The position numbers and the translations under genes were made by a program. DNA of 44,632 nucleotides from an uncultured Pseudomonadales bacterium (lineage in GTDB: Bacteria > Pseudomonadota > Gammaproteobacteria > Pseudomonadales > Porticoccaceae), in assembly GCA_905478975.1 (NCBI GenBank), contig CAJQKW010000092.1:1-44632 (forward strand), given 5' to 3'. Below the pieces are notes generated by a model. It saw only the letters and a list, made by a program, of their open reading frames with translations, was not told the origin of the DNA and searched no databases. The stretch's first letter is position 1. Each line of letters opens with the position of its first letter. Shown one piece after another: positions 25,268 through 37,377 of this stretch.

Positions 25268-27034
25268 TCAAAATAACCCGGCAAATTCATCAAAGCTGCC
25301 CTTATCCCCAGCCAACTCAAGAACACCCGCGTTATAAAGCCCCTGCCAAGTCACCAGACCCTCACATACCAGCGCCAAATTGCTATGACTGATACTCAAA
25401 CTAAAAGCCACATCCTCAGCACGATACTCAGATGTCAGCAAAACACCCCGATCAATATCCACAACATAGTTTCCAGGACGATCATTTAATACAATCTTAA
25501 AACGCAGATCGGTCTCTCTTGCCGCCTCAACATTCAGCCGCGCACCCAGCGTATGCAAAAACCCAACCCCATCCGCTGACTTATAGGTCTCGGGCAAGCC
25601 CCGTGCCGCAGCCGCTCTGGCTATAGCCCCAAGAGAAATATGGCCATCCATGATCAATGTCTGAGTGAGTAGATAGTTGCGCTCATTGGCACTTTCACTG
25701 GCATAGGCCAGAGCCTTAATCGACCATGACTTAAGCTGGCGCGCCTCGGGATGCTGTTGATCTAGAGCGAGAATATAACCGGCCAGTTCCAACGTCCATT
25801 TAAAGTCTTGCCCCTGATAGGCCTCACGCAATTTATCCATGGCATTCTCGATACCACCAAAGCCATCGACAATTCTGACCGCCCGAGTATAGGGTGAAAC
25901 CGGCGCTAAACCCGCGGCCTCACCACCAAACCATCCCATTAACTGAGCATAAATGCCCCGGGTGATCCAGCTAAGCTTGTGATAGTAATCGCCGCGATCT
26001 TCACCCTGTAAAAACCACTCCGGGTAGGCAAATACATCTTGGACATATTCGCCCGAGCGGTTTTGTCTAATATACCTGGTCACTTCATCGATCATAAATT
26101 GCGCGGAGCGGCGATCATTTCGGGTCATATGACGCACTGCTGCCCTGCCCTCCACTACATCACCGTGACCGCCAATTAACACCTCGGCATTCAGTGATTC
26201 AATGCGCGTCATACTGTCCACGAAGGCTTGAGCATCTCGGCCCGGTTCATGGCGCGGTGTGGACAATATGGCATGGACATGGCTATCGGTGACTGTATCT
26301 CCAGTCAGCACAGCTTGGTTGTCGGGAAACCACAGGGATAGGCCATCATCTAAATCCCCTGGGGTGTATAGCGCCTGAAATCGAAGCCCGGCAAATTCAA
26401 GCCATTCGCCGTCGGCAACAGTCATAGTGGGTGTCACATAAGAGAGGGTTCCCTCCGCACGCAACACTGGCCCGCCTCCGGAGCCCACGGTTCCATAGAG
26501 CCCTTCGGGCAAAACCATACCCAGCTGGGCAAAGGCACGCAAAGTAACGATCGGCATAACCGCACTGGAAACATAGTTGATATTGCGCTGCCAGTTACTG
26601 TGGGCAATAAACGCTGCATTGGGTGCGGCGGCTTTAAAGGCCGCGGAACCGCCCACATGGTCGCCATGACCATGGGAATAAATCACCGCAACAATCGGCT
26701 TGTCGGTAATCTCCCGGATCGCCGCGATGGCCAGCTGTGCTTTCTCAACCCGAAAGCCGGTATCCATCACCACAAGCCCCTCAGGGCCTTCAATAAAGAT
26801 GATATTGCTCATATCGAAACCATGAGCCACATAGATATTGTCCTGAACCCGAATAATTTCGGCCTCAGAAAACCTCTGTTGATGAGCTAGCAGCGCTTTG
26901 TTAGCGGAGGGAGTGGGGGCTTTTAATTGGCTGCTTGAGTCCGCGAAAGCCTTTTCATTAGGGGTGAATAGCGCCATGGCCAACACTAAAATAGTGCTAT
27001 ACAAAATAGTGCTATACAAAAGAGGAATATACAA
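25268..27034 (-). CDS. Exported metallo-beta-lactamase-fold alkyl-sulfatase-like hydrolase
   Basis: A 588-residue relative of the SdsA/BDS1 alkyl sulfatases. The signal peptide ends KAFADS (about residue 31). The zinc site is SHGHGDHVGG (H121, H123, D125, H126), with GDTVTDSHVHA and GGHGDVVEG giving later ligands. The helical dimerisation region (about 330-470) and a C-terminal SCP2-like domain (about 480-588) complete the architecture. These enzymes cut linear alkyl sulfates to alcohol and sulfate in the periplasm, which would feed the neighbouring oxidation genes. The start is uncertain: TTG at 27034 is upstream of a 15-bp repeat that itself contains TTG codons, and an ATG occurs at residue 20. 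It follows the AraC gene by 107 bp on the same strand. Confidence 0.85.
   Translation of the reverse strand: MYIPLLYSTILYSTILVLAMALFTPNEKAFADSSSQLKAPTPSANKALLAHQQRFSEAEIIRVQDNIYVAHGFDMSNIIFIEGPEGLVVMDTGFRVEKAQLAIAAIREITDKPIVAVIYSHGHGDHVGGSAAFKAAAPNAAFIAHSNWQRNINYVSSAVMPIVTLRAFAQLGMVLPEGLYGTVGSGGGPVLRAEGTLSYVTPTMTVADGEWLEFAGLRFQALYTPGDLDDGLSLWFPDNQAVLTGDTVTDSHVHAILSTPRHEPGRDAQAFVDSMTRIESLNAEVLIGGHGDVVEGRAAVRHMTRNDRRSAQFMIDEVTRYIRQNRSGEYVQDVFAYPEWFLQGEDRGDYYHKLSWITRGIYAQLMGWFGGEAAGLAPVSPYTRAVRIVDGFGGIENAMDKLREAYQGQDFKWTLELAGYILALDQQHPEARQLKSWSIKALAYASESANERNYLLTQTLIMDGHISLGAIARAAAARGLPETYKSADGVGFLHTLGARLNVEAARETDLRFKIVLNDRPGNYVVDIDRGVLLTSEYRAEDVAFSLSISHSNLALVCEGLVTWQGLYNAGVLELAGDKGSFDEFAGLF
26988..27032 (-). 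repeat. 15-bp in-frame repeat in the signal peptide
   Basis: AAAATAGTGCTATAC (plus strand) occurs twice exactly (26988-27002, 27003-27017), with a degenerate third unit at 27018-27032 (11 of 15 identical). On the coding strand the units give LYSTI, LYSTI in the hydrophobic core. Confidence 0.9.
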
Positions 27035-27141: not shown

Positions 27142-28143
27142 TCAAAGGTTGCTGCCTGCATGCTTTGCTTGTCGAATACGCAACGGCGTGGTTCCCGACC
27201 AACGTTTAAAAGAACGGCGAAAGTTGGCTGAATTATTAAACCCCAGCAGAGCGGCAATTTCTGCTCCAGGCAAATCTGTGCCCTGCAAATACTCAAGCGC
27301 CAGTCGGTAGCGAACCTGATCCAGCAGCTGCTGATATCGACTGCCCTCTTTCCCCAGCCGCCGCTGCAAAGTACTCTCACTCATATACATCTGCTGGGCC
27401 ACCGCTGCAGCGGTGGGAAATTCTGAGCGCGATAACAGCAGCAGCTGCACAACCCGCTCACTCACCGCACCAGAATAATTGTCGTTGGCCAAAATCCGAT
27501 CGCACTCGCGGCGAAACACACCCTGAGCAATAGGATCCGATGTCGAGATAGTCACCGCCAGACTCTCGGCATCAAAGGTCAGTCCGCAGCGGTTCGAATT
27601 AAAGTGAATCGTCGAACCAAACACCGACTCGTAAAATGCCCGATCTCCTGGCTGCCCGTGATTCAACTCAAGGACTGGCGTGGCCCCTTGATTGTCGGTG
27701 AGCAAATTCAGGTTGGTCACCAGCCCGGCATACAGCGCATCTTTATAAAACTGTTCCAGTGCTTGCGGGAGATGCGGCGCGGCACTGCGCAACTCCACAG
27801 ACCCTTCACCTGGTATTAGCTCAATACGCATACTCGGCAGCAGCGCACGCTTGTAACGCACCATTAATTTGAGCACATCATCCACAGTGGCGCTGGTCAT
27901 CAGGGCGTAACCCAAAATACCCAGAGAGACCATATCCAATTTAGTGCCCAGCTTAATACCCAGCAACCTGTCACCGGAAAGGGCAATCGCTCTACCGCAA
28001 ACTTCATCGGATTGGGCGGCGTTAAAAAGCTGTGATCGACTCAAGTCAACGCCGTCTAAATCGGTATTTTCAAGTAGTTGAGTCTTAGAAATACCCTGCT
28101 CTGCTAGCAGATCTATCAATACAGGTAACGCAAGAGAATTCAT
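27142..28143 (-). CDS. AraC-family regulator 1
   Basis: A 333-residue regulator with an N-terminal arabinose-binding-type (OruR/ArgR-like) domain and a C-terminal AraC double helix-turn-helix (MSESTLQRRLGKEGSRYQQLLDQVRYRLALEYLQGTDLPGAEIAALLGFNNSANFRRSFKRWSGTTPLRIRQ). The start at 28143 has GAGG five bases upstream in TTGAGGTATTTATG, exactly as in its paralogue at 32387-33370, so I reject a 32-codon extension. It is divergent from alkB; three copies of the 15-bp operator lie between them. The effector is probably a substrate or product of the oxidation pathway. The metallo-beta-lactamase-fold gene follows and may be cotranscribed. Confidence 0.92.
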   Translation of the reverse strand: MNSLALPVLIDLLAEQGISKTQLLENTDLDGVDLSRSQLFNAAQSDEVCGRAIALSGDRLLGIKLGTKLDMVSLGILGYALMTSATVDDVLKLMVRYKRALLPSMRIELIPGEGSVELRSAAPHLPQALEQFYKDALYAGLVTNLNLLTDNQGATPVLELNHGQPGDRAFYESVFGSTIHFNSNRCGLTFDAESLAVTISTSDPIAQGVFRRECDRILANDNYSGAVSERVVQLLLLSRSEFPTAAAVAQQMYMSESTLQRRLGKEGSRYQQLLDQVRYRLALEYLQGTDLPGAEIAALLGFNNSANFRRSFKRWSGTTPLRIRQAKHAGSNL

Positions 28144-28178: not shown

Positions 28179-28267
28179 TTGACGGTAAATGACCTTTTAA
28201 TTGACCGTATTTGACTTTCTGATTGACTGTATTTGACACTCTTTACCAGCCCACTGTCAATTACAAT
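28179..28267 (+). promoter_or_regulatory. Operator/promoter of alkB: three 22-bp-spaced direct repeats
   Basis: Three 15-bp repeats start at 28179 (TTGACGGTAAATGAC), 28201 (TTGACCGTATTTGAC) and 28223 (TTGACTGTATTTGAC), each 22 bp from the next. Each contains two TTGAC-like halves 10 bp apart. TACAAT at 28262-28267, inside GTCAATTACAAT, is the likely -10, 39 bp after the start of the last repeat; no good -35 is in position, which fits an activator-dependent promoter. The same layout occurs at 33405 and 34546. Confidence 0.85.
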
Positions 28268-28309
28268 CTTCAAAACAGAATTTCCGCAAACAACATTAAG
28301 GAGATCACA

Positions 28310-29509
28310 GTGGCAACTTATACCCTAGAGCACCCAGACAAAGGTTTGATTAGTTACACCGACAAGAAGCGCTACCTCTGGTTGATATCCATGTTAATGC
28401 CAGCTTTCCCGCTGATGGGCGTGGCTATCTTTTATCAGACTGGCATTCAGTGGACTCTGACCCTGCCTCTGGCGGTGAACTACCTGATTCTGCCCTTTGT
28501 CGATCATTTCGTCGGCAGCGATGTCAACAATCCCCCGGAAGAGCTGGTGCCTCAGATAGAGGCTGATAGGTATTACCGTATTCTGACCATGCTCACCGTT
28601 CCTCTGCATTTTGCCGTGCTCGGCGTAATGGCCTATGTGGTGGGCACCAATGATCTGAGTCCTTGGACAGTTTTGGTGATGGCAATTATTGCCGGCGGCT
28701 ACAGCGGTCTGGGAATTAACACCGCCCATGAACTGGGGCACAAGCAAACAGCCATAGAACAGCTGTTGGCCAAAATAGTATTGGCAGTTCCCGCCTATGG
28801 GCATTTTTGTGTCGAGCACAATCGCGGCCATCATGTACTGGTAGCCACGCCGGATGACCCGGCCAGCTCAAGACTGGGTGAGAACATCTATGCCTTTACC
28901 CTGCGTGAAATTCCCGGCACTTTTGTACGCGGCTGGAATCTAGAAAAAACCCGGCTCAATAAACAGGGTAAAGCCACCTGGTCTGTGGGCAATAATATTT
29001 TGCAGTCCTACCTAATGAGTCTGGTATTGCAGGGCACATTGGTTTATTTGTTTGGCTGGATTATGCTGCCCTTTTTGGCGGTACATAACTTTTGGGCCTG
29101 GTATCAGCTGACCTCGGCCAACTATATTGAGCACTATGGTCTGCTGCGTAAAAAGAACGACAACGGTCGCTACGAGCGCTGCCAGCCACACCATTCTTGG
29201 AATGCTAATTATATTATGAGCAACCTGGCACTGTTTCATCTGCAACGTCACTCAGACCACCATGCCAACCCTATTCGCCGCTACCAGAGCCTGCGCAACT
29301 TTGATGATATCCCCGAACTACCCAATGGCTATTACGGCATGTATCTACTGGCCTATATTCCGTGGCTGTGGTTTAAAGTGATGGATAAGCGCGTGTTGGC
29401 CCTGCCCCATATCAATGGTGACCTGAGTAAGGTTAATATACTGCCCTCAAAGCTTAAAGCCACCTATGAGCAATATGGCCAAAGCCAAGAAATCCCTCAA
29501 CAAGGCTAA
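28310..29509 (+). CDS. alkB: AlkB-type alkane/aliphatic monooxygenase
   Basis: A 399-residue integral-membrane di-iron hydroxylase. The three histidine boxes are HELGH (140-144), EHNRGHH (169-175) and LQRHSDHH (311-318), and NYIEHYGL (271-278) is the family signature; there are about six membrane helices. It hydroxylates alkanes or other aliphatic chains at a terminal or near-terminal carbon and needs electrons from rubredoxin, which is not encoded in this window or fused to it. The GTG start is set by AAGGAGA six bases upstream and lies about 35 nt after the predicted transcription start. Expression is probably controlled by the upstream operator and the divergent AraC gene. The DUF1330 gene follows 57 bp later. 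Actual substrate is unproved. Confidence 0.93.
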   Translation: MATYTLEHPDKGLISYTDKKRYLWLISMLMPAFPLMGVAIFYQTGIQWTLTLPLAVNYLILPFVDHFVGSDVNNPPEELVPQIEADRYYRILTMLTVPLHFAVLGVMAYVVGTNDLSPWTVLVMAIIAGGYSGLGINTAHELGHKQTAIEQLLAKIVLAVPAYGHFCVEHNRGHHVLVATPDDPASSRLGENIYAFTLREIPGTFVRGWNLEKTRLNKQGKATWSVGNNILQSYLMSLVLQGTLVYLFGWIMLPFLAVHNFWAWYQLTSANYIEHYGLLRKKNDNGRYERCQPHHSWNANYIMSNLALFHLQRHSDHHANPIRRYQSLRNFDDIPELPNGYYGMYLLAYIPWLWFKVMDKRVLALPHINGDLSKVNILPSKLKATYEQYGQSQEIPQQG

Positions 29510-29566
29510 GGCCCGAAAGAGCCTTTAAGCCATTTGTTTTATCATTTTAAACACAGGAAAGAAAAG

Positions 29567-29857
29567 ATGACCGTTTATATCATTGCTAAATTCACCATTC
29601 ACGATCGCAGTGAATATGACATCTACGAGAGTGGTTTTGCCGAGGTGTTCGCGAAGTTTGATGGCAAGATGCTCAGCGTTGACGAAGAGCCACTGGTACT
29701 GGCGGGAGATTGGCAGGCCACTAGGTCAGTTATCATTGAGTTTCCCTCAAAGGAAAGTGCTTTAACCTGGATGACCTCTGATGAATATCAAGCGATTGCG
29801 ACCCATCGCAATGCAGGAAGCACAGTGACCTCCATATTAGTTAAGGGCCTAGAATAA
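29567..29857 (+). CDS. DUF1330 protein
   Basis: A 96-residue cytoplasmic ferredoxin-like (dimeric alpha/beta barrel) protein of the DUF1330 family: KFTIHDRSEYDIYESGFAEVFAKFDGKMLSVDEEPLVLAGDW, then VIIEFPSKESALTWMTSDEYQAIATHRNAGSTV. Function is unsettled; the fold is shared with small oxygenases and dimeric regulatory subunits. AGGAAAG precedes the ATG at 29567. It is cotranscribed with alkB, which suggests an accessory role. Confidence 0.88.
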   Translation: MTVYIIAKFTIHDRSEYDIYESGFAEVFAKFDGKMLSVDEEPLVLAGDWQATRSVIIEFPSKESALTWMTSDEYQAIATHRNAGSTVTSILVKGLE

Positions 29858-29867
29858 GCTCTCAATC

Positions 29868-29900
29868 AGCAGCCTATAAATCGTTTATTTATAGGCTGCT
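29868..29900. terminator. Hairpin between convergent genes
   Basis: AGCAGCCTATAAA and TTTATAGGCTGCT form a perfect 13-bp stem with a 7-nt loop, between the DUF1330 gene and the convergent DUF5916 gene. No long T run follows, so termination is likely but not certain. Confidence 0.65.
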
Positions 29901-29960
29901 AATAAGCTATTTATAACTATTTATAAGCTGAACACCTAGCCCATAGTGGCGTCCTGAACC

Positions 29961-32243
29961 TCAAAAACGATAGCGAATCTTAGCAATAACCGATTCAACC
30001 TGAACCCCATCCCAGCCCTCGTTAATAAGCGTTCCCGGACCCTCATCACCATCATCGCTGGAGAAGTAACCACCGCGACTGTAGACCAGAAAAATATCGG
30101 ACAGCGGCGCGAGCTGATAACGGTAACGCACTTGCAACGCCGTATCACTGAGGCTGAAGTCATCAGCCGAGCTAGCGGATAAGCCCAGAGTGCCATCGCT
30201 ATTGAGCTGATAACTATCGACCTGCTCTGCGTCTATACCCACCCACTGGAATTTTAAGCGCACTTCTTGCCTCGCCGAGGGGTACCAATCAAAACGCAGA
30301 TCGGCATTAAAGCGGTCAGCGTCAAAACCCGCCAACTGGGCTGTATCGAAATCCCATATCAACCATTCCTGTAGGCGTTTATAACTGAAGTCTCCGGCCA
30401 GCGTGACTGTTTCACTAAGATATATCTGAGTACTAAACTCAAGAGTTAAGGCGACCTTTTCTATCTCATCATATTTAATCTTGGCCTCAACATTAAAAGT
30501 CAGATCATTGCCTCTAGGACTTGAGTATCGCGTCTCTAGCCAGTAACGAGAGGGCTTGGCAAACATGCCATTACCTCGAGACAGTCGATCGTCCCAGCTA
30601 GAGGCAGAGGCTCCAGCTCTTAAGGCCAGTTTACGGGTCGATTTATAGGTCCAGGTATGGTCCCAGTTAGCGCGCAACTTGAGACGATCGCCCTGTGTAT
30701 TCTCGACAATGTCATATTCATATACGGTGCTGCTTGAGAGAATATTAGAGTCAGCCTCATACTCCAGGCGATCATGGCGACTACTGCCAGAAAACTCTCT
30801 AAAATCATTGCGCTTCATAAAGCCCATATCGTTCATATCAAATTTATCACCGTAATGGGATAAATAGACACTGTGGTACCACTCATCACTTGGCGCATAA
30901 GACCAACTAGCCCAGCCAGCAAAATCTTGATCGTCGACAGACACCTGGCTATTAGCGCTATTCCCTTGCTGCTGAACATCGGCACGGAGAATTTGCCCGC
31001 GAAATTCTGTGGTTTCATCTTTGCGCCAGATCATATCCAGCACCTGAACTGTCGCCTCTCTATCGAGAATAGGTCTCTCTGCATAGGTCAGACGATGTCC
31101 AAGGGTCAGCCCATTAACCTTGTGCTGAATCCTACTGGATAAAAAATCACCGCCAAAACTGCCTTTAGAATCATCTTCTCTGACAACAAAAAGACCCAGG
31201 TCAGTGGCCTCGCCGAAATGGGTCACCTTGGCGGCCAAATCAATATCCACAAGACCGCCGCCCTGACCTGCTGGGCCAGCGCCAATCCGCCGAGTGTAGA
31301 GAGTTTGATCACCATTGCGAATATTGCTGCTAAACAGCGATTGATTCTCGGTGAAAAATGGCCGTTTTTCAGTAACAAATGTTTCAAACGCGGAAAAGTT
31401 AACCACCAAATTATCACTTTCCACCTGGCCAAAATCAGGATTAATCGCACCGGTCAGCTGGCTGCTGCTATTGGGTCGCCAGATAAAATCCAGCCCCCCA
31501 TTAAACTCCTCACTAGTGGTTCCCGGCGTGCTGTTTTGCAGGTCACTGCTGTAGCTAATATAGGGAAACCAGTCCAAGGTTGAGGTGGACACCTGCTCCA
31601 CTTCTAATGGCTGCCAATCTTCCATAAAGGTTGGCCGCGAATAATAGGCGTTGGGGAAGGCGAAGCGCAGAGATTCATCAAACACCACTCTGGAGAACCA
31701 CAGAGCAATTTTCTTACGGCCATTTCCGGCATCGGTCATCGGCGCTACAGTCCAGGGAATATGCATCTCGCTGTACCAGTAATCCTTATTCGACGAGGTT
31801 TGGGAATACCAGGTGCCGTCCCAATCTCCGGAGTAGTCGCCGGGCGTGACAATGCCATCCTGCTGTGAGTTAGCCGACCCCACGGTAAAGTCATAGCCTG
31901 CAAGGGCAGTGCTATCGAAGTCGATACTCACGACATTTCGATCTGCTTCAATCTGGGCGTCACGGGGAAATTGCCGATTGACACGCTTTACTGAAGCCGG
32001 CTGATAGTTGCTAAAACCAACAAATATGCCTTCAGAATTGGTGATTACACGCACTTCAGTGGAGTATTTTGCCGAATCACCTGTGAGTGGCTCTACTGTG
32101 ACGAAGTCACTGTATACCTTGGCATCAGCCCACTCCTCTTCATCCAGAACCCCATCAATAACAATGCCGGCAGAAACACTGGATATACAGAATAGACAGC
32201 AACTGAGAAGCAGCCACAGTCGGCTAGAGGATGTATTTCGCAT
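29961..32243 (-). CDS. DUF5916 outer-membrane protein with CBM9-like N-terminus
   Basis: A 760-residue outer-membrane protein. After a signal peptide (cleavage near VSAG, residue 25), GIVIDGVLDEEEWADAKVYSDFVTVEP begins a CBM9-like beta domain; NPDFGQVESDNLVVNFSAFETFVTEKRPFFTENQ is diagnostic of the DUF5916 family. The rest is rich in amphipathic strands and ends in SVIAKIRYRF, a terminal Phe typical of barrel insertion. Members occur with TonB-linked uptake and carbohydrate or lipid degradation; the ligand is unknown. Its setting between alkB and the second AraC gene suggests a role in passage of the hydrophobic substrate, which is inference. No clear ribosome site precedes the ATG. Confidence 0.87.
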   Translation of the reverse strand: MRNTSSSRLWLLLSCCLFCISSVSAGIVIDGVLDEEEWADAKVYSDFVTVEPLTGDSAKYSTEVRVITNSEGIFVGFSNYQPASVKRVNRQFPRDAQIEADRNVVSIDFDSTALAGYDFTVGSANSQQDGIVTPGDYSGDWDGTWYSQTSSNKDYWYSEMHIPWTVAPMTDAGNGRKKIALWFSRVVFDESLRFAFPNAYYSRPTFMEDWQPLEVEQVSTSTLDWFPYISYSSDLQNSTPGTTSEEFNGGLDFIWRPNSSSQLTGAINPDFGQVESDNLVVNFSAFETFVTEKRPFFTENQSLFSSNIRNGDQTLYTRRIGAGPAGQGGGLVDIDLAAKVTHFGEATDLGLFVVREDDSKGSFGGDFLSSRIQHKVNGLTLGHRLTYAERPILDREATVQVLDMIWRKDETTEFRGQILRADVQQQGNSANSQVSVDDQDFAGWASWSYAPSDEWYHSVYLSHYGDKFDMNDMGFMKRNDFREFSGSSRHDRLEYEADSNILSSSTVYEYDIVENTQGDRLKLRANWDHTWTYKSTRKLALRAGASASSWDDRLSRGNGMFAKPSRYWLETRYSSPRGNDLTFNVEAKIKYDEIEKVALTLEFSTQIYLSETVTLAGDFSYKRLQEWLIWDFDTAQLAGFDADRFNADLRFDWYPSARQEVRLKFQWVGIDAEQVDSYQLNSDGTLGLSASSADDFSLSDTALQVRYRYQLAPLSDIFLVYSRGGYFSSDDGDEGPGTLINEGWDGVQVESVIAKIRYRF

Positions 32244-32386
32244 ATAAGAATCGATTTATTATTGTTATAGGATTATGTAAAGAGTCTATGGTATTTCAAC
32301 CAAAGAAACAGCTGTAATACCTCAATTAAGCTGGCCCTGAGGCGTAAAATTGTCAAACCGGGTGCCAACTAAATGACCATAACAGC

Positions 32387-33370
32387 CTAGTTAGCCTGTC
32401 GAATCCCCGCCGGTGTTGTTGACGACCATCGTTTAAAGGAACGGCGAAAATTAGCTGAACTACTGAAGCCCACTAAGGCGGCAATTTCTGCGACGGGCAA
32501 CTCTGTGCCCTCTAAATATTCAAGCGCAAGTCGGTACCTCACCTGATCGAGCAGTTGCTGGAAGCGAGTCCCCTCCTTGGCCAGTCGTCTCTGCAAAGTA
32601 CTCTCACTCATATGCATCTGCTCGGCTACAGCGGCACCGGTGGGGAATTCTGAGCGCGATAACAGCAGCACCTGTTTAACCCGCTCGCTGACAACACCAG
32701 AGTAATCATCGTTGGCCAAAATACGATCACACTCGCGGCGAAAAATATCCTGAGCCACAGGGTCAGAAGAGGTTATCGGCACAGCTAGGCTGGCGGCATC
32801 AAACACCAGGCAACAACGGTCGGCGTTAAAACGGACATTGGGACCAAATATGGATTGATAAAAACTCATATCCTCTGGCTGACCATAATCCAACTCCAGG
32901 CGGGTCGCGGCGCCCTGATTGTCTGTGAGTAATTTTAGATTAGTGACCAGACCAGCAAACAGTGAGTCTTTATAAAACTGCTCTAAGGCTTCGGGCAAAT
33001 GGGCAGCTGAACAGTGCAATTCTAAAGTGCCAGCCCCGGGTATTAAATCAATACGCACACTGGGCAGTACCACACGTTTATAACGTACTAATATTTTGAC
33101 CATATCCCCTGCCGTGGCACTGGTCATCAGGGCGTAACCGAGGATGCCCAGGGAGACTATATCGAGCTTCGTGCCCAGCTTAGCACCCAGTAATCGATCA
33201 CCAGAAAGCTTGATGGCTTTACTGCAAATTTCATCCGCTTGCTGGGAATTGAAAAACGTCGTGGCGCCCAAATCTAGGGTTTTCAAGCCTATTTTTTCAA
33301 GTAGCTGCGTTTCAGATATGCCCTGGTCAGCGAGTAGATCGATCAATACAGGTAACACAGGAGAAAGCAT
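32387..33370 (-). CDS. AraC-family regulator 2 (paralogue of regulator 1)
   Basis: A 327-residue regulator that is collinear with and very similar to the one at 27142-28143 throughout (for example LGTKLD-VSLGILGYALMTSAT, DPxAQ..FRRECDRILAND.YSG, SESTLQRRL.KEG). The C-terminal AraC HTH is intact. The start at 33370 has the same GAGGTATTTATG leader as the paralogue. It is divergent from the SDR gene, with two 22-bp-spaced operator repeats between them. The pair probably arose by duplication and may bind the same sites or differ in effector. It precedes the DUF5916 gene by 143 bp on the same strand. Confidence 0.92.
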   Translation of the reverse strand: MLSPVLPVLIDLLADQGISETQLLEKIGLKTLDLGATTFFNSQQADEICSKAIKLSGDRLLGAKLGTKLDIVSLGILGYALMTSATAGDMVKILVRYKRVVLPSVRIDLIPGAGTLELHCSAAHLPEALEQFYKDSLFAGLVTNLKLLTDNQGAATRLELDYGQPEDMSFYQSIFGPNVRFNADRCCLVFDAASLAVPITSSDPVAQDIFRRECDRILANDDYSGVVSERVKQVLLLSRSEFPTGAAVAEQMHMSESTLQRRLAKEGTRFQQLLDQVRYRLALEYLEGTELPVAEIAALVGFSSSANFRRSFKRWSSTTPAGIRQAN

Positions 33371-33404
33371 AAATACCTCAAAGAAATTGTTGAAAAACCC
33401 GAAA

Positions 33405-33471
33405 ATGACCGCAAATGAGCTGTTCATTGACCGTATTTGACACTGGCCTTTAGTGGTCTGTCAATTACAAT
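33405..33471 (+). promoter_or_regulatory. Operator/promoter of the SDR gene
   Basis: Two 15-bp repeats start at 33405 (ATGACCGCAAATGAG) and 33427 (TTGACCGTATTTGAC), 22 bp apart. TGTCAATTACAAT at 33459-33471 supplies the -10 TACAAT (33466-33471), 39 bp after the start of the second repeat, as at alkB. The predicted leader is about 125 nt long; its first part (CGCAAACAGAATAAACCGAGG region) resembles the alkB leader. Confidence 0.83.
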
Positions 33472-33602
33472 AGGTTCATTAGGATGTTCGCAAACAGAAT
33501 AAACCGAGGCTTTATTATTTTGCGCTTGGCCTAGAGGGCTAATCGCCACTGTGCAACATTCAGACCTAGCCAATAATAAAAATTAGAAAAGAGGCAACTT
33601 TA

Positions 33603-34505
33603 ATGAAAACACTTTCCAACAAAGTCGCAGTGATCACCGGTGCTGGTTCAGGTATAGGCCGCTATCTCGCCATACTGCTGGCACGATCTGGTGCCAATAT
33701 AGCCGCCTGTGAAATTAGTGAGACGGCACTAGCAGAGACCGTTTCGATGCTTCGAGACTACCCTGTAAAAGTATCTAGCCATCTACTCGATGTAGCCGAC
33801 AAAGCTGCCATCGAAGCCCTGCCGGAACAGGTTATTGCCCAACACGGCCACGTTGACCTGGTGTTCAATAACGCCGGGGTTACCGTTGACTCCACCTTTG
33901 AGGATTTGTCTGAGACCGATTGGGACTGGGTGATGAATATCAATCTGCAAGGCGTGATCAATTCCAGCCGTGCCTTCTTGCCCCATTTAAAGCAGCGACC
34001 TGAAGCCGCTCTAATCAATACCTCCTCTATTTTTGGCATGATTGTGGTTGAGCGACAGTCGGTTTATCACACCGCAAAATTTGCCGTGCGCGGCTTTACT
34101 GAAAGCCTCGCCAAAGAAATGAAAGGTGGCTCGGTACAGATACACTGCGTGCATCCCGGCCATATAGGAACCAATATTCTCGGCAATGCGCGGATTAATA
34201 AGAGTGAGGAATCGGCAAACGCCTTTCAGCGCCTGATGGGCAAGCTTGCGGGCATAGGTGATGATCAGGAATCCATGGCTGCCTTCTTTGAGCAAAATGG
34301 TATGCATCCCAGCCGTGCGGCGCAGATTATGCTCAATGGCGTATTGAACAATCGCCCCCGAATTCTTGTTGGCACCGATGCCAAACTGATGGATCTCTGT
34401 CAGCGCCTGATGCCCATCCACTATGAAAAGTTATTCCCCTTTTTCACTGTGCCCCTGACCTTTTTACGCAATAAGAAACCGATTAAGGGCCTACCTAGTC
34501 TTTAG
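33603..34505 (+). CDS. Short-chain dehydrogenase/reductase
   Basis: A 300-residue SDR. The nucleotide-binding motif TGAGSGIG is at 12-19, NNAG at 89-92, the catalytic Ser at 141/142, Y155 and K159 in SVYHTAK. Members oxidise alcohols or reduce ketones with NAD(P). In this setting it would oxidise the alcohol made by AlkB or released by the alkyl sulfatase. A C-terminal extension (about 225-300) carries basic and hydrophobic residues (LTFLRNKKPIKGL), consistent with membrane association. AGAGG precedes the ATG. The operator upstream is shared with alkB and the flavin monooxygenase. Confidence 0.9.
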   Translation: MKTLSNKVAVITGAGSGIGRYLAILLARSGANIAACEISETALAETVSMLRDYPVKVSSHLLDVADKAAIEALPEQVIAQHGHVDLVFNNAGVTVDSTFEDLSETDWDWVMNINLQGVINSSRAFLPHLKQRPEAALINTSSIFGMIVVERQSVYHTAKFAVRGFTESLAKEMKGGSVQIHCVHPGHIGTNILGNARINKSEESANAFQRLMGKLAGIGDDQESMAAFFEQNGMHPSRAAQIMLNGVLNNRPRILVGTDAKLMDLCQRLMPIHYEKLFPFFTVPLTFLRNKKPIKGLPSL

Positions 34506-34545
34506 GCCCAGTCTCTAAGCTAAGAACAGCCTGGTATAGCAAAAT

Positions 34546-34611
34546 ATGACGGTATATGAATCGCTAATTGACCGTATTTAAGCCCTTCAATATTGAGCGG
34601 TCAATTACAAT
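34546..34611 (+). promoter_or_regulatory. Operator/promoter of the flavin monooxygenase gene
   Basis: Two 15-bp repeats start at 34546 (ATGACGGTATATGAA) and 34568 (TTGACCGTATTTAAG), again 22 bp apart. GGTCAATTACAAT gives -10 TACAAT at 34606-34611, 38 bp after the start of the second repeat. The site falls between the SDR stop and the monooxygenase start, so this gene has its own promoter within an apparent operon. Confidence 0.82.
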
Positions 34612-34651: not shown

Positions 34652-36169
34652 GTGTCGGAATCTTCACCGCAGCGCCCAGATCAAGCAGTAACCAGCACAG
34701 AACATAGAGATGTGATTATCGTCGGTGCTGGCCTATCCGGTATTGGCGCCGCCTGCCATCTCGCTGACAAATGCCCTGACCGCAGTTATCTATTGCTGGA
34801 ATCACGCAAGGCCATGGGCGGCACCTGGGATCTGTTCCGCTACCCCGGCATTCGCAGTGACAGCGATATGCACACATTGGGCTATAGCTTTAAACCCTGG
34901 GAAGGTGCCAAAGCCATTGCCGACGGCCCTTCTATTCTCAATTATGTTCGTGAAACCGCTGTTGAAAGTGGTGTCGACCAGCATATTCGTTACGGCCACC
35001 GCCTGGTCTCAGCCAGCTGGTCTTCAGAACAGTCAATATGGACATTAGCGGTACGTCAGTCCGACAGCGATCAGACGGTGCAGATGACCTGTAATTTTCT
35101 CTATATGTGTTCCGGCTATTACAGCTACGAGACACCCCATAATCCTAAGTTCCCAGAAGTGGATAGCTTTAAAGGCCAAGTCATTCGCCCGCAATTTTGG
35201 CCCGACAATCTCGACTATCAAGATAAGACTGTGGTGATAATTGGTTCCGGTGCGACCGCTATGACATTGGTTCCGGCCATGGCTAAAAAAGCCAAGCAGG
35301 TGACAATGCTTCAGCGCTCTCCCACCTATGTGCTCTCAAGGCCGTCCGAAGACTGGTTTGCCAACGGTCTGCGAAAAATTTTACCGTCGGCCTGGGCCTA
35401 TGGAGTAACGCGCTTTAGAAATACGCTATTCCAAGAATTTCTTTTTAAGCAGGCACGCAAATATCCGGCAATGGCCAAGCGTCTTTTAATCCGACAGTTA
35501 CGCAAACAGCTTGGCAAAGACTATGACGTCGAGAAGCATTTTACCCCCAACTATAATCCCTGGGATCAACGCCTCTGCCTAGTGCCCGACGATGACTTAT
35601 TTAAAGCCATTAGCAGCGGTAGCGCGACCGTCGTAACCGACCACATTCAGCGTTTTACCGAGGCTGGTATTGAGCTGAAATCGGGACAGCATCTTCAGGC
35701 AGATATTGTTGTCAGTGCCACGGGGCTTGAGTTAGAAGTGATGGGTGGTGCGACCTTTAGTGTTGATGGCCAAGCCGTGGACTTCGCGAAGCTAACCACC
35801 TACAAAGGGTTTATGGTCTCGGATGTGCCCAACATGGTGTCGACCTTCGGCTATGTCAACGCCTCTTGGACATTGCGTGCAGACCTGATCTCAGAATGGG
35901 TTTGCAGAACCTTAAACCATATGCGTCAAACTGAGACCAGCAAAGTAGTGCCAGTGCTTCCAGAATCCTTAAAAGATATGCCCACCAAAGACTGGATTGC
36001 CGACTTCCCCGCTGGCTACCTAAAGCGGGCTATGCATCTGCAGCCTAAACAGGGCAATCAGGCACCCTGGGTAAATAGCCAAGATTTTCGCAGTGAGCGG
36101 GCGCTGTTTAGGCTGCCCATAGAGTCGGATAAGGCGCTGTATTTTAGCGCAGCAGAAAAAAGCACTTAA
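34652..36169 (+). CDS. EthA-like flavin monooxygenase (Baeyer-Villiger type) with altered fingerprint
   Basis: A 505-residue FAD/NADPH monooxygenase. FAD-binding GAGLSG is at 25-30, GGTWDLFRYPGIRSDSDMHTLGYSFKPW at 56-83, and the NADPH site GSGATA at 198-203. Relatives convert ketones to esters (Baeyer-Villiger) and oxidise sulfur compounds. The Baeyer-Villiger fingerprint F-x-G-x3-H-x3-W is present as F173-K-G175-Q-V-I-R179-P-Q-F-W183, with Arg where His is normal (CGC at 35186-35188). The GTG start is set by GGGG about 9 bp before it. It ends 29 bp from the convergent lactonase gene. A ketone formed by the SDR is the obvious candidate substrate. Confidence 0.9.
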   Translation: MSESSPQRPDQAVTSTEHRDVIIVGAGLSGIGAACHLADKCPDRSYLLLESRKAMGGTWDLFRYPGIRSDSDMHTLGYSFKPWEGAKAIADGPSILNYVRETAVESGVDQHIRYGHRLVSASWSSEQSIWTLAVRQSDSDQTVQMTCNFLYMCSGYYSYETPHNPKFPEVDSFKGQVIRPQFWPDNLDYQDKTVVIIGSGATAMTLVPAMAKKAKQVTMLQRSPTYVLSRPSEDWFANGLRKILPSAWAYGVTRFRNTLFQEFLFKQARKYPAMAKRLLIRQLRKQLGKDYDVEKHFTPNYNPWDQRLCLVPDDDLFKAISSGSATVVTDHIQRFTEAGIELKSGQHLQADIVVSATGLELEVMGGATFSVDGQAVDFAKLTTYKGFMVSDVPNMVSTFGYVNASWTLRADLISEWVCRTLNHMRQTETSKVVPVLPESLKDMPTKDWIADFPAGYLKRAMHLQPKQGNQAPWVNSQDFRSERALFRLPIESDKALYFSAAEKST

Positions 36170-36198: not shown

Positions 36199-37377
36199 CT
36201 AAAACGGAAAACCCTGCACATTCATTTGCGCGGTATAAATTCCCGCCTCTAAACAATTAGCAGCGCCACACTGACGGAGGCTATCCCCGTCCATAAGATC
36301 GGTTAAGCCTGTCACAAATAATGTTTTCCCATCCTCCCCACCAAAGGCAACATTGGTGACAATATGGATTCCTTCAACGTTTAACTGACCCAGCTCAGTG
36401 TGATTTTTATCGATTACCACCACCACTTGGCCGTCAGATCTGGAGGCGAGTTCTCTGGTGGTGGTCGCATAAATATTGCCACTGCAATCTTTTCCCATAC
36501 CATCAATTGGCGTCTCTAATATTTTCTGCGGATTCGATACTTCACCGGCGATTAAATCAAAGGCCCACAATCCCTGCATTCCACCCACAATCAGCTGTTG
36601 TTGATCCAGTGACAGGATAATCCCATTGGGTTTATCGCGCAGAGCCGGTACAAGCTCAGTCACGGCGGTGGCATTCACTGCACCCTCACTGGTGACCCGG
36701 TAAATACGCTGCCCCGGTTCGGTTGATCCAGGTTGGCCGCCACCCTGTACCCCCTCTAAGTTAATATTGGAAGGGGTGTTCCAATTCGGGTCGGTAAAAT
36801 AAACCGTATCATCATGGCCAATGGTCAAGTCATTGGGCGCGTTAAATCGCTTATTGTTGTAGCTGGATACAATTGGCGTAACCTCTTGGCTTTCCCAGTC
36901 AATATAAGACAGAGAGCCATCTAGCTGCCTTGCTGCCACTAAATGGCCCTGGCTATCCAGTGCCAAACCATTGCTGCCGGCAACGCTGTCATTTAGCCAG
37001 ACCTGCGGTTCTTGACCCTCAACCCAGCGCCAGATGGTAGTTTGGTTAGTTAACTGAAAGCCGTTTTGGTCCACTGTGCCCATATTGGAATAATAGAGCG
37101 CGCCATCGTGCCATACAGGGCCTTCGATATTGTTATAGCCCTCATACATCAGCGGAATATTTTGTTCACGTGTAAGGACTACATTGGCCAAATCGAGCTT
37201 TAGATTTTCTGCCCCTGCAGAGCAATATTGGGCATTGGCCTGAGCTATGGATTCCACATTATTGGCTAGCTTAGGGGGTTCTATATCTGCACATGAAGCC
37301 GCCAGAATAGAGTAACAAGCCACGGCCATAAGTGAGGTTTTTTTGGTGTTAAATTTAGTCGCAAACAATGAAGGCAC
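36199..37377 (-). CDS. SMP-30/gluconolactonase-family lipoprotein
   Basis: A 392-residue six-bladed beta-propeller of the SMP-30/gluconolactonase/LRE type: EGPVWHDGALYYSNM (first metal Glu), NGLALDSQGHLVAA, FNAPNDLTIGHDDTVYFTDPNW (Asn and Asp ligands) and KPNGIILSLDQQQLIV. The N-terminus has a lipobox (AASC), so it is a periplasmic lipoprotein. It opens sugar lactones such as gluconolactone to the acid. The GTG at 37377 has AGG too close; a TTG at 37368 with AGGGTG six bases upstream is a better start. It follows the LacI gene by 32 bp, as the last gene of the gluconate operon. Confidence 0.88.
   Translation of the reverse strand: MPSLFATKFNTKKTSLMAVACYSILAASCADIEPPKLANNVESIAQANAQYCSAGAENLKLDLANVVLTREQNIPLMYEGYNNIEGPVWHDGALYYSNMGTVDQNGFQLTNQTTIWRWVEGQEPQVWLNDSVAGSNGLALDSQGHLVAARQLDGSLSYIDWESQEVTPIVSSYNNKRFNAPNDLTIGHDDTVYFTDPNWNTPSNINLEGVQGGGQPGSTEPGQRIYRVTSEGAVNATAVTELVPALRDKPNGIILSLDQQQLIVGGMQGLWAFDLIAGEVSNPQKILETPIDGMGKDCSGNIYATTTRELASRSDGQVVVVIDKNHTELGQLNVEGIHIVTNVAFGGEDGKTLFVTGLTDLMDGDSLRQCGAANCLEAGIYTAQMNVQGFPF

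Follow-up and report, generated by a model that had tools for sequence, protein, structure and literature searches.

The 44,632-nucleotide contig CAJQKW010000092.1 of an uncultured member of the Porticoccaceae, which at its full length we call the window, carries genes for an AlkB-type alkane monooxygenase (alkB), a short-chain dehydrogenase (SDR) and a flavin-binding monooxygenase-like protein (FMO), and upstream of each of these we find two or three copies of a 15-bp box that recur at steps of exactly 22 bp. Arrays with the same phase are present next to genes for AraC-type regulators in several families, where they stand at a fixed distance from a putative -10 element. The repeats very probably constitute the operator of the two AraC-type regulators encoded in the window, which we refer to as AraC1 and AraC2. 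An earlier interpretation made from the letters of the window alone (the sequence-only reading) had proposed such an operator, and the proposal is supported by the phase of the boxes, by their conservation upstream of orthologous genes and by their co-occurrence with an AraC gene.

Phased boxes in the window and in related genomes

All seven 15-mers that had been reported before alkB, SDR and FMO are present at a spacing of 22 bp (Table 1). Their consensus is TTGACnGTATTTrAC, with nCC usually following the proximal box, and each box is made up of two contact segments 10 bp apart, as in direct-repeat operators. In the window, a search with the exact 15-mer allowing up to 3 mismatches returns 5 matches against 1.04 expected, with a maximum of 3 in 100 shuffles; the upstream boxes at 33405 and 34546 are too degenerate for this pattern. 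In the draft genome to which the window belongs (2,244,207 bases, 79.86% complete), a 22-bp doublet of IUPAC boxes, with no more than 3 mismatches over both, has 4 matches, all at the three promoters, and the reversed control has none. The lone 15-mer at 2 mismatches gives 5 matches there, one of them elsewhere (contig C60), versus 7 for its reversed control, so a single box is not specific, whereas the phased pair is. Because the IUPAC boxes were built from the same seven sites, this test speaks to the absence of doublets elsewhere in the genome and is not an independent discovery of the motif.

Loci were also picked with a profile of the AraC protein, blind to the motif. The profile yielded 52 loci that belong to named records, including HTCC2207 (L151), MOLA455 (L149), HTCC2143 (L184), HTCC2148 (L175), Paraglaciecola (L187, L189, L197) and Zhongshania (L192), and in each the 450 bp upstream of the AraC gene were scanned. 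We find a period-22 array in 47 of the 52. Periods of 16-21, 23 and 25-28 bp do not occur, 24 and 32 bp occur once each, and 44 bp, which is twice 22, occurs twelve times. No array arose in 100 Markov-resampled sets, in which dinucleotide transitions but not exact counts were kept, and 1 of 1580 other 450-bp windows of the same loci, each strand counted, contains one. The motif does not, therefore, occur at random density, an outcome that would have spoken against the sequence-only reading; this control and the restriction of doublets to three promoters in the genome of origin agree on the point. Among the five misses, L177 and L179 fall below the score threshold yet show, by eye, weaker boxes spaced by exactly 22 bp; the upstream region of L180 includes 145 N, and L198 and L199 encode distant AraC proteins (27-28% identity).

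The number of boxes differs between these arrays. By a loose count that admits up to 4 mismatches a box, 23 of the 47 loci have two boxes, 15 have three, 8 have four and one has six; when end boxes of at least 3 mismatches are trimmed, one box is left in 1 locus, two in 25, three in 15, four in 5 and five in 1. The first box lies 1 to 102 bp (in one case 322 bp) upstream of the AraC start, and in the alignment of the arrays most spacer positions vary while the boxes are kept. In a quick tree of 51 AraC proteins (L179, L180 and L199 were left out) the neighbouring gene needs 6 changes, the least possible for six labels being 5, and the operator is kept; AraC2 branches within the alkB-linked regulators of its genus, as expected of a late duplicate. 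Among named bacteria, the closest relatives are of the SAR92 clade/Porticoccaceae, which are common in surface seas.

Two of the loci call for separate mention. Ahead of the AraC gene at 4001 in L188, and preceding a PF10118-like gene, there is a run of six box-like units spaced by exactly 22 bp, of which three are weak (3 mismatches). L174 lies on a contig titled Flavobacteriaceae bacterium TMED48 and has a Porticoccaceae-like AraC gene, alkB and an array; it likely comes from a wrongly labelled bin.

On the promoter side, GTCAATTACAAT begins at 28256 (alkB), 33460 (SDR) and 34600 (FMO). The block bearing the -10 had been placed 38-39 bp on; the TACAAT within it begins 39, 39 and 38 bp, respectively, after the start of the last box. 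Across the array loci the aligned promoter profile reads TGTCAAYTAnAAT. TAnnnT is found 23 or 24 bp past the last box in 47/47 of them, while every other distance between 5 and 39 bp is seen in 5 loci at most; GTCAA is found 17 or 18 bp past the last box in 35/47. The second and third bases past the proximal box are a conserved CC (1.70 and 1.07 bits), which makes the box nearer 18 bp long. There is no conserved TTGACA at -35 spacing in the alignment of array loci, as we would expect of an activator-dependent promoter. The TTGACA at the end of the alkB and SDR proximal boxes was considered as a -35 element and rejected, since it would leave 23 bp to the -10. The proximal box lies by or over the predicted -35 position and at a fixed distance from the putative -10, as in other direct-repeat operators. 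We find no support for GTCAAY as a simple inverted second half-box: GTCAA is kept in 16/18 non-alkB loci and 19/29 alkB loci, although box position 13 differs between the two groups, being A in 45/51 boxes of the former and G in 61/78 boxes of the latter. GTCAAY may still be an inverted first half-box.

A scan of the genome of origin and its relatives for the phased motif had been suggested as a check, and it shows the motif to be conserved upstream of orthologous genes. Within the family, 27 of 112 genomes match the doublet, with 53 matches among those listed (4 in the window) and 6 for the reversed control. From the 49 matches in relatives, 29 were taken as loci (L010-L038): 21 adjoin AlkB and AraC homologs (with L014 and L038 representing a single array), SDR and FMO homologs are found at 3 (L024, L036, L037), and the other 5 (L016, L017, L019, L022, L033) have no homolog of a window protein nearby. 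At the level of the order, 20 of 390 genomes match at 2 mismatches (8 of the family, 12 of others) against 3 control matches, and in 8 of the 12 other-family genomes the site is accompanied by an AraC homolog, alkB or both. Genes at the other-family sites encode P450 (L133), PF10118 proteins (L135, L137, L140), acyl-CoA dehydrogenases (L138, L142) and AlkB (L139, L141); Pfam was run on one representative per kind, L137 and L140 were assigned by sequence, and the contig of L139 ends before any AraC gene.

Some arrays found by pattern, of two or three boxes, precede a DUF1254/DUF1214 gene (L016, L017, L022) or a fatty-acid desaturase gene (L019), and a further desaturase-gene site is present in L045. 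In sister genomes G026, G027, G031 and G039, double or triple 22-bp arrays precede DUF1254/DUF1214 or desaturase genes at about 8.1-9.5 kb of L044, L045, L046, L048 and L052 (the Pfam assignment was run on L044 and L045 only). GTCAAC precedes the -10 in L044, L046 and L052, whereas L045 and L048 have a changed form of it. These genes are candidates for further members of the regulon in the sister genomes.

The array does not simply follow the ancestry of alkB. We collected 43 alkB loci from 42 family genomes, of which 40 could be counted; L083 (masked) and L091 and L099 (contig ends) were dropped, and L098 (52% identity, 538 bp upstream) and L100 (33%) were kept among the 16 loci without AraC. 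An array is present at 24/24 alkB loci with an adjoining AraC homolog versus 0/16 without one (p = 2e-11). No array is found at eight alkB orthologs of 74-81% identity without AraC, whereas AraC-linked orthologs at only 67-72% have one, and so the array follows the regulator. As far as gene neighbourhoods indicate, the widely conserved core is an AraC gene together with alkB or another predicted lipid-oxidation gene, and across species operator and regulator accompany different putative lipid or alkane oxidation genes.

The regulators, a proposed mechanism and its rivals

AraC1 and AraC2 are 72% identical over 326 residues and, consistent with the description of two paralogous regulators facing two of the promoters, are transcribed divergently from the adjoining alkB and SDR, respectively; FMO has no adjoining AraC gene. 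Both proteins score above the cut-off for PF12833 and PF00165, corresponding to the C-terminal domain with two helix-turn-helix (HTH) motifs, and both have the PF12625 N-terminal effector domain, as is typical of the AraC/XylS family. The NCBIfam models QhpR, GliR and CypR give 149, 126 and 116 bits for AraC1 and 154, 143 and 115 bits for AraC2, below their cut-offs of 250, 570 and 500. Across 14 AraC proteins, with identities as low as 44%, SESTL.R.L and NFRR hardly vary, and AraC1 and AraC2 share the longer segments SESTLQRRL and ANFRRSFKRW without a difference. In a structure model of AraC1 these segments fall on helices 256-265 and 305-316, which, from the topology of the AraC family, we take to be the recognition helices. 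The model has a mean predicted local distance difference test score (pLDDT) of 80.8 and a predicted template modelling score (pTM) of 0.58, so the packing of its domains is unsure; its best matches by E-value are CdpR (5chh) and the N-terminal domain of VirS (8rcw). Since the recognition-helix core is the same in both proteins, the three promoters should all be readable by either one, and cross-talk is expected.

We propose that each 15-bp box would take one AraC monomer, with one HTH motif per contact segment, and, since a 22-bp period is close to two helical turns, that the monomers would line up head to tail along a single face of the helix. The proximal box, at about -51 to -37 from the inferred start, ends 23-24 bp short of the -10 and lies beside a poor -35, and the monomer bound there would touch RNA polymerase, by analogy with class II AraC activators. 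A ligand, perhaps an alkane, a fatty acid or an oxidation product to judge from the target genes, would switch the regulator on, whereupon alkB, with three boxes, and SDR and FMO, with two each, would be induced together. The position of the array just upstream of the araC start makes autoregulation likely as well. What we infer here about binding, activation, ligand and autoregulation builds on the observed motif, its spacing, phase and conservation, and its tie to the regulator gene.

The kind of operator is a known one. The MtlR operator at PmtlE of Pseudomonas fluorescens is described as two 15-bp blocks of two pentamers 5 bp apart, with N7 between the blocks, footprinted at -72/-58 and -50/-36 (PMC4514859). 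It shares with our arrays the 22-bp period of 15-bp blocks and nearly the same inferred place in the promoter, but its box sequence is different, its inducers are sugar alcohols and it has two blocks, whereas here there are often more than two boxes and GTCAAY at the -10. XylS acts at Pm through 15-bp direct repeats with two sub-boxes each, read by two HTH motifs, and its proximal monomer aids binding of the distal one (PMC5481539); it differs in its 21-bp period (from the site formula quoted in PMC4514859), its sequence and its benzoate-type ligand. AggR works best with a site 22 bp from the -10 (PMC6392122). Because the geometry matches that of the MtlR and XylS operators, we assign the arrays to the AraC/XylS direct-repeat operators. 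The sequence-only reading knew of no described alkB regulator with this operator code; we find its layout to be of a known kind. Neither the consensus nor regular arrays of at least three boxes nor the GTCAAY element is described in the literature searched, most subscription journals being outside its reach.

AraC-type activators of alkane oxidation genes are likewise on record, namely APR1 (for almA), AlkR, AlkRa and AlkRb in Acinetobacter and CypR in Dietzia; for APR1, the accessible part of the source gives AraC-type control of almA and describes no footprint or repeat operator (PMC11784139). The CypR model is among the three best NCBIfam matches of AraC1 and AraC2, but far under its cut-off (115 vs 500 bits). 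VirS, which controls mymA in Mycobacterium tuberculosis, has the same N-terminal domain fold as AraC1 (8rcw, target TM 0.78) at 20% identity. Its operon includes the Baeyer-Villiger monooxygenase MymA, but organism and role are different, and no operator repeat is described in the part of the source at hand (PMC13234193).

It is conceivable that the array is mainly a site for repression or autoregulation of the araC genes, its effect on alkB, SDR and FMO being secondary. The first box is so close to the AraC start that bound protein would cover the leader or promoter of that gene, and APR1 represses its own gene (PMC11784139). We nevertheless regard this as improbable, given that the FMO array has no adjoining araC gene, that no AraC1 or AraC2 homolog is found by the DUF1254 and desaturase arrays in 12-18 kb stretches of the sister genomes, and that the constant distance to the -10 of the other gene in all 47 loci points to activation of that gene. 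Less probable still, in our view, is that a regulator encoded elsewhere binds the boxes and that the AraC gene is merely a frequent neighbour. Arrays in G026, where we detect no AraC of the group, would fit this idea, but AraC adjacency predicts the array at alkB loci without exception in either direction, the array persists at nearly all AraC-picked loci in several families though the neighbouring gene changes, and the size and split of the box fit the two-HTH AraC domain. As for chance or simple repeat expansion without regulatory meaning, duplication can create short repeats, but conserved boxes between variable spacers, the lack of doublets elsewhere in the genome and an exact phase across families leave this explanation with hardly any credibility.

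Several observations weigh against the arrays being the operator of these AraC-type regulators. The 24/0/0/16 table counts related genomes and not independent events, and several loci are near-duplicates. G026, which is 94% complete, has two arrays and neither an AraC of the group (E 1e-50) nor alkB (E 1e-40), although it is possible that these genes are on a missing contig. Four of the 12 other-family matches (L131, L132, L134, L136) are without an AraC or alkB neighbourhood and look like chance. Lastly, of the 17 AraC-bearing genomes in which the region upstream of SDR could be read, just 4 (the genome of origin included) have an SDR and/or FMO array.

We also put forward, tentatively and with some doubt, an extended form of the proposal, in which the regulators might bind arrays of three to six 22-bp boxes cooperatively as head-to-tail oligomers and not just as dimers, box number tuning the response, GTCAAY might make the promoter switch-like by offering one more contact, either an inverted half-box or an element for RNA polymerase, and the module might be re-used by different lipid or alkane oxidation genes across marine gammaproteobacteria. 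alkB commonly serves as a marker of hydrocarbon use. With a portable operator code, one could list each genome's regulon from sequence and predict its induction, and the code would supply parts for biosensors. Moreover, the natural series of arrays, with two to about five or six boxes and the same protein family, would provide a way to ask how AraC-type proteins use more than two sites.

Extent of the proposed regulon and the genes of the cluster

SDR homologs are present in 30 of 110 genomes and FMO homologs in 73. We viewed 34 genomes and counted 29, leaving out G024 (75 bp upstream) as well as G041, G099, G108 and G111, which are FMO-only and have no array; FMO loci were covered for 30 of the 73 genomes with an FMO match. 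SDR and/or FMO arrays were found only in G000, G012, G037 and G044, so that none of the 12 genomes without AraC has one, a difference from the AraC-bearing genomes that is not significant (Fisher p = 0.12). G017 has a weak FMO match at 3 mismatches. A general three-gene regulon across the genus was thus tested for and not found. The sequence-only reading had spoken of an oxygenase regulon of alkB, SDR and FMO, and this stands for the genome of origin, where all three genes have arrays, but not for most AraC-bearing relatives. The predicted three-gene set is real in that genome and lineage-restricted, which would make it either recent or often lost. A second AraC copy at SDR is present in G000 and G012 only; in G053 each of the two copies adjoins an alkB. 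With a single AraC of the group (E 1e-50), G037 carries arrays at alkB and at SDR alike, which makes it plausible that one protein serves the two.

Table 1. Predicted operator boxes, promoter elements and genes of the cluster, in window coordinates.
Feature	Position	Strand	Remark
alkB operator box 3 (distal), TTGACGGTAAATGAC	28179..28193	+	predicted
alkB operator box 2, TTGACCGTATTTGAC	28201..28215	+	predicted
alkB operator box 1 (proximal), TTGACTGTATTTGAC	28223..28237	+	predicted
GTCAAY element of alkB, directly 5' of the -10	28256..28261	+	GTCAA kept in 35/47 loci
Putative -10 of alkB, TACAAT	28262..28267	+	TAnnnT conserved at fixed distance in 47/47 loci
SDR distal operator box, ATGACCGCAAATGAG	33405..33419	+	predicted
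SDR proximal operator box, TTGACCGTATTTGAC	33427..33441	+	predicted
GTCAAT element and putative -10 TACAAT (33466-33471) of SDR	33460..33471	+	
FMO distal operator box, ATGACGGTATATGAA	34546..34560	+	predicted
FMO proximal operator box, TTGACCGTATTTAAG	34568..34582	+	predicted
GTCAAT element and putative -10 TACAAT (34606-34611) of FMO	34600..34611	+	
AraC1, PF12625 ligand domain and HTH_18	27142..28143	-	putative activator of alkB and the shared regulon
alkB, AlkB-type alkane 1-monooxygenase	28310..29509	+	PF00487
AraC2, AraC1 paralog with identical recognition-helix core	32387..33370	-	putative regulator of SDR and FMO
SDR, short-chain dehydrogenase	33603..34505	+	PF00106
FMO, flavin-binding monooxygenase-like protein	34652..36169	+	PF00743

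The alkB product is 51.7-53.9% identical to its five best plasmid matches, all five of which are annotated as alkane 1-monooxygenase. Its translation contains HELGHK, EHNRGHH and QRHSDHH, which we take to be the defining histidine boxes of AlkB and which, with PF00487, place it in the membrane fatty-acid-desaturase superfamily. For FMO, which matches PF00743, the subgroup of the AlmA and MymA flavin monooxygenases is a candidate affiliation. The start of AraC1 at 28143 was picked because it aligns with those of its orthologs. A DUF5916 gene (29961-32243) lies between alkB and AraC2 and is found in the same position in HTCC2207 (L039); it adjoins alkB in other relatives too. The cluster is flanked by an SMP-30/gluconolactonase-like gene (36199-37377) and an alkyl-sulfatase-type gene (25268-26980), at neither of which the 22-bp doublet scan finds an array. 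With these two genes beside those for AlkB, SDR and FMO, one can imagine a route from hydroxylation through a ketone to an ester or lactone and on to hydrolysis.

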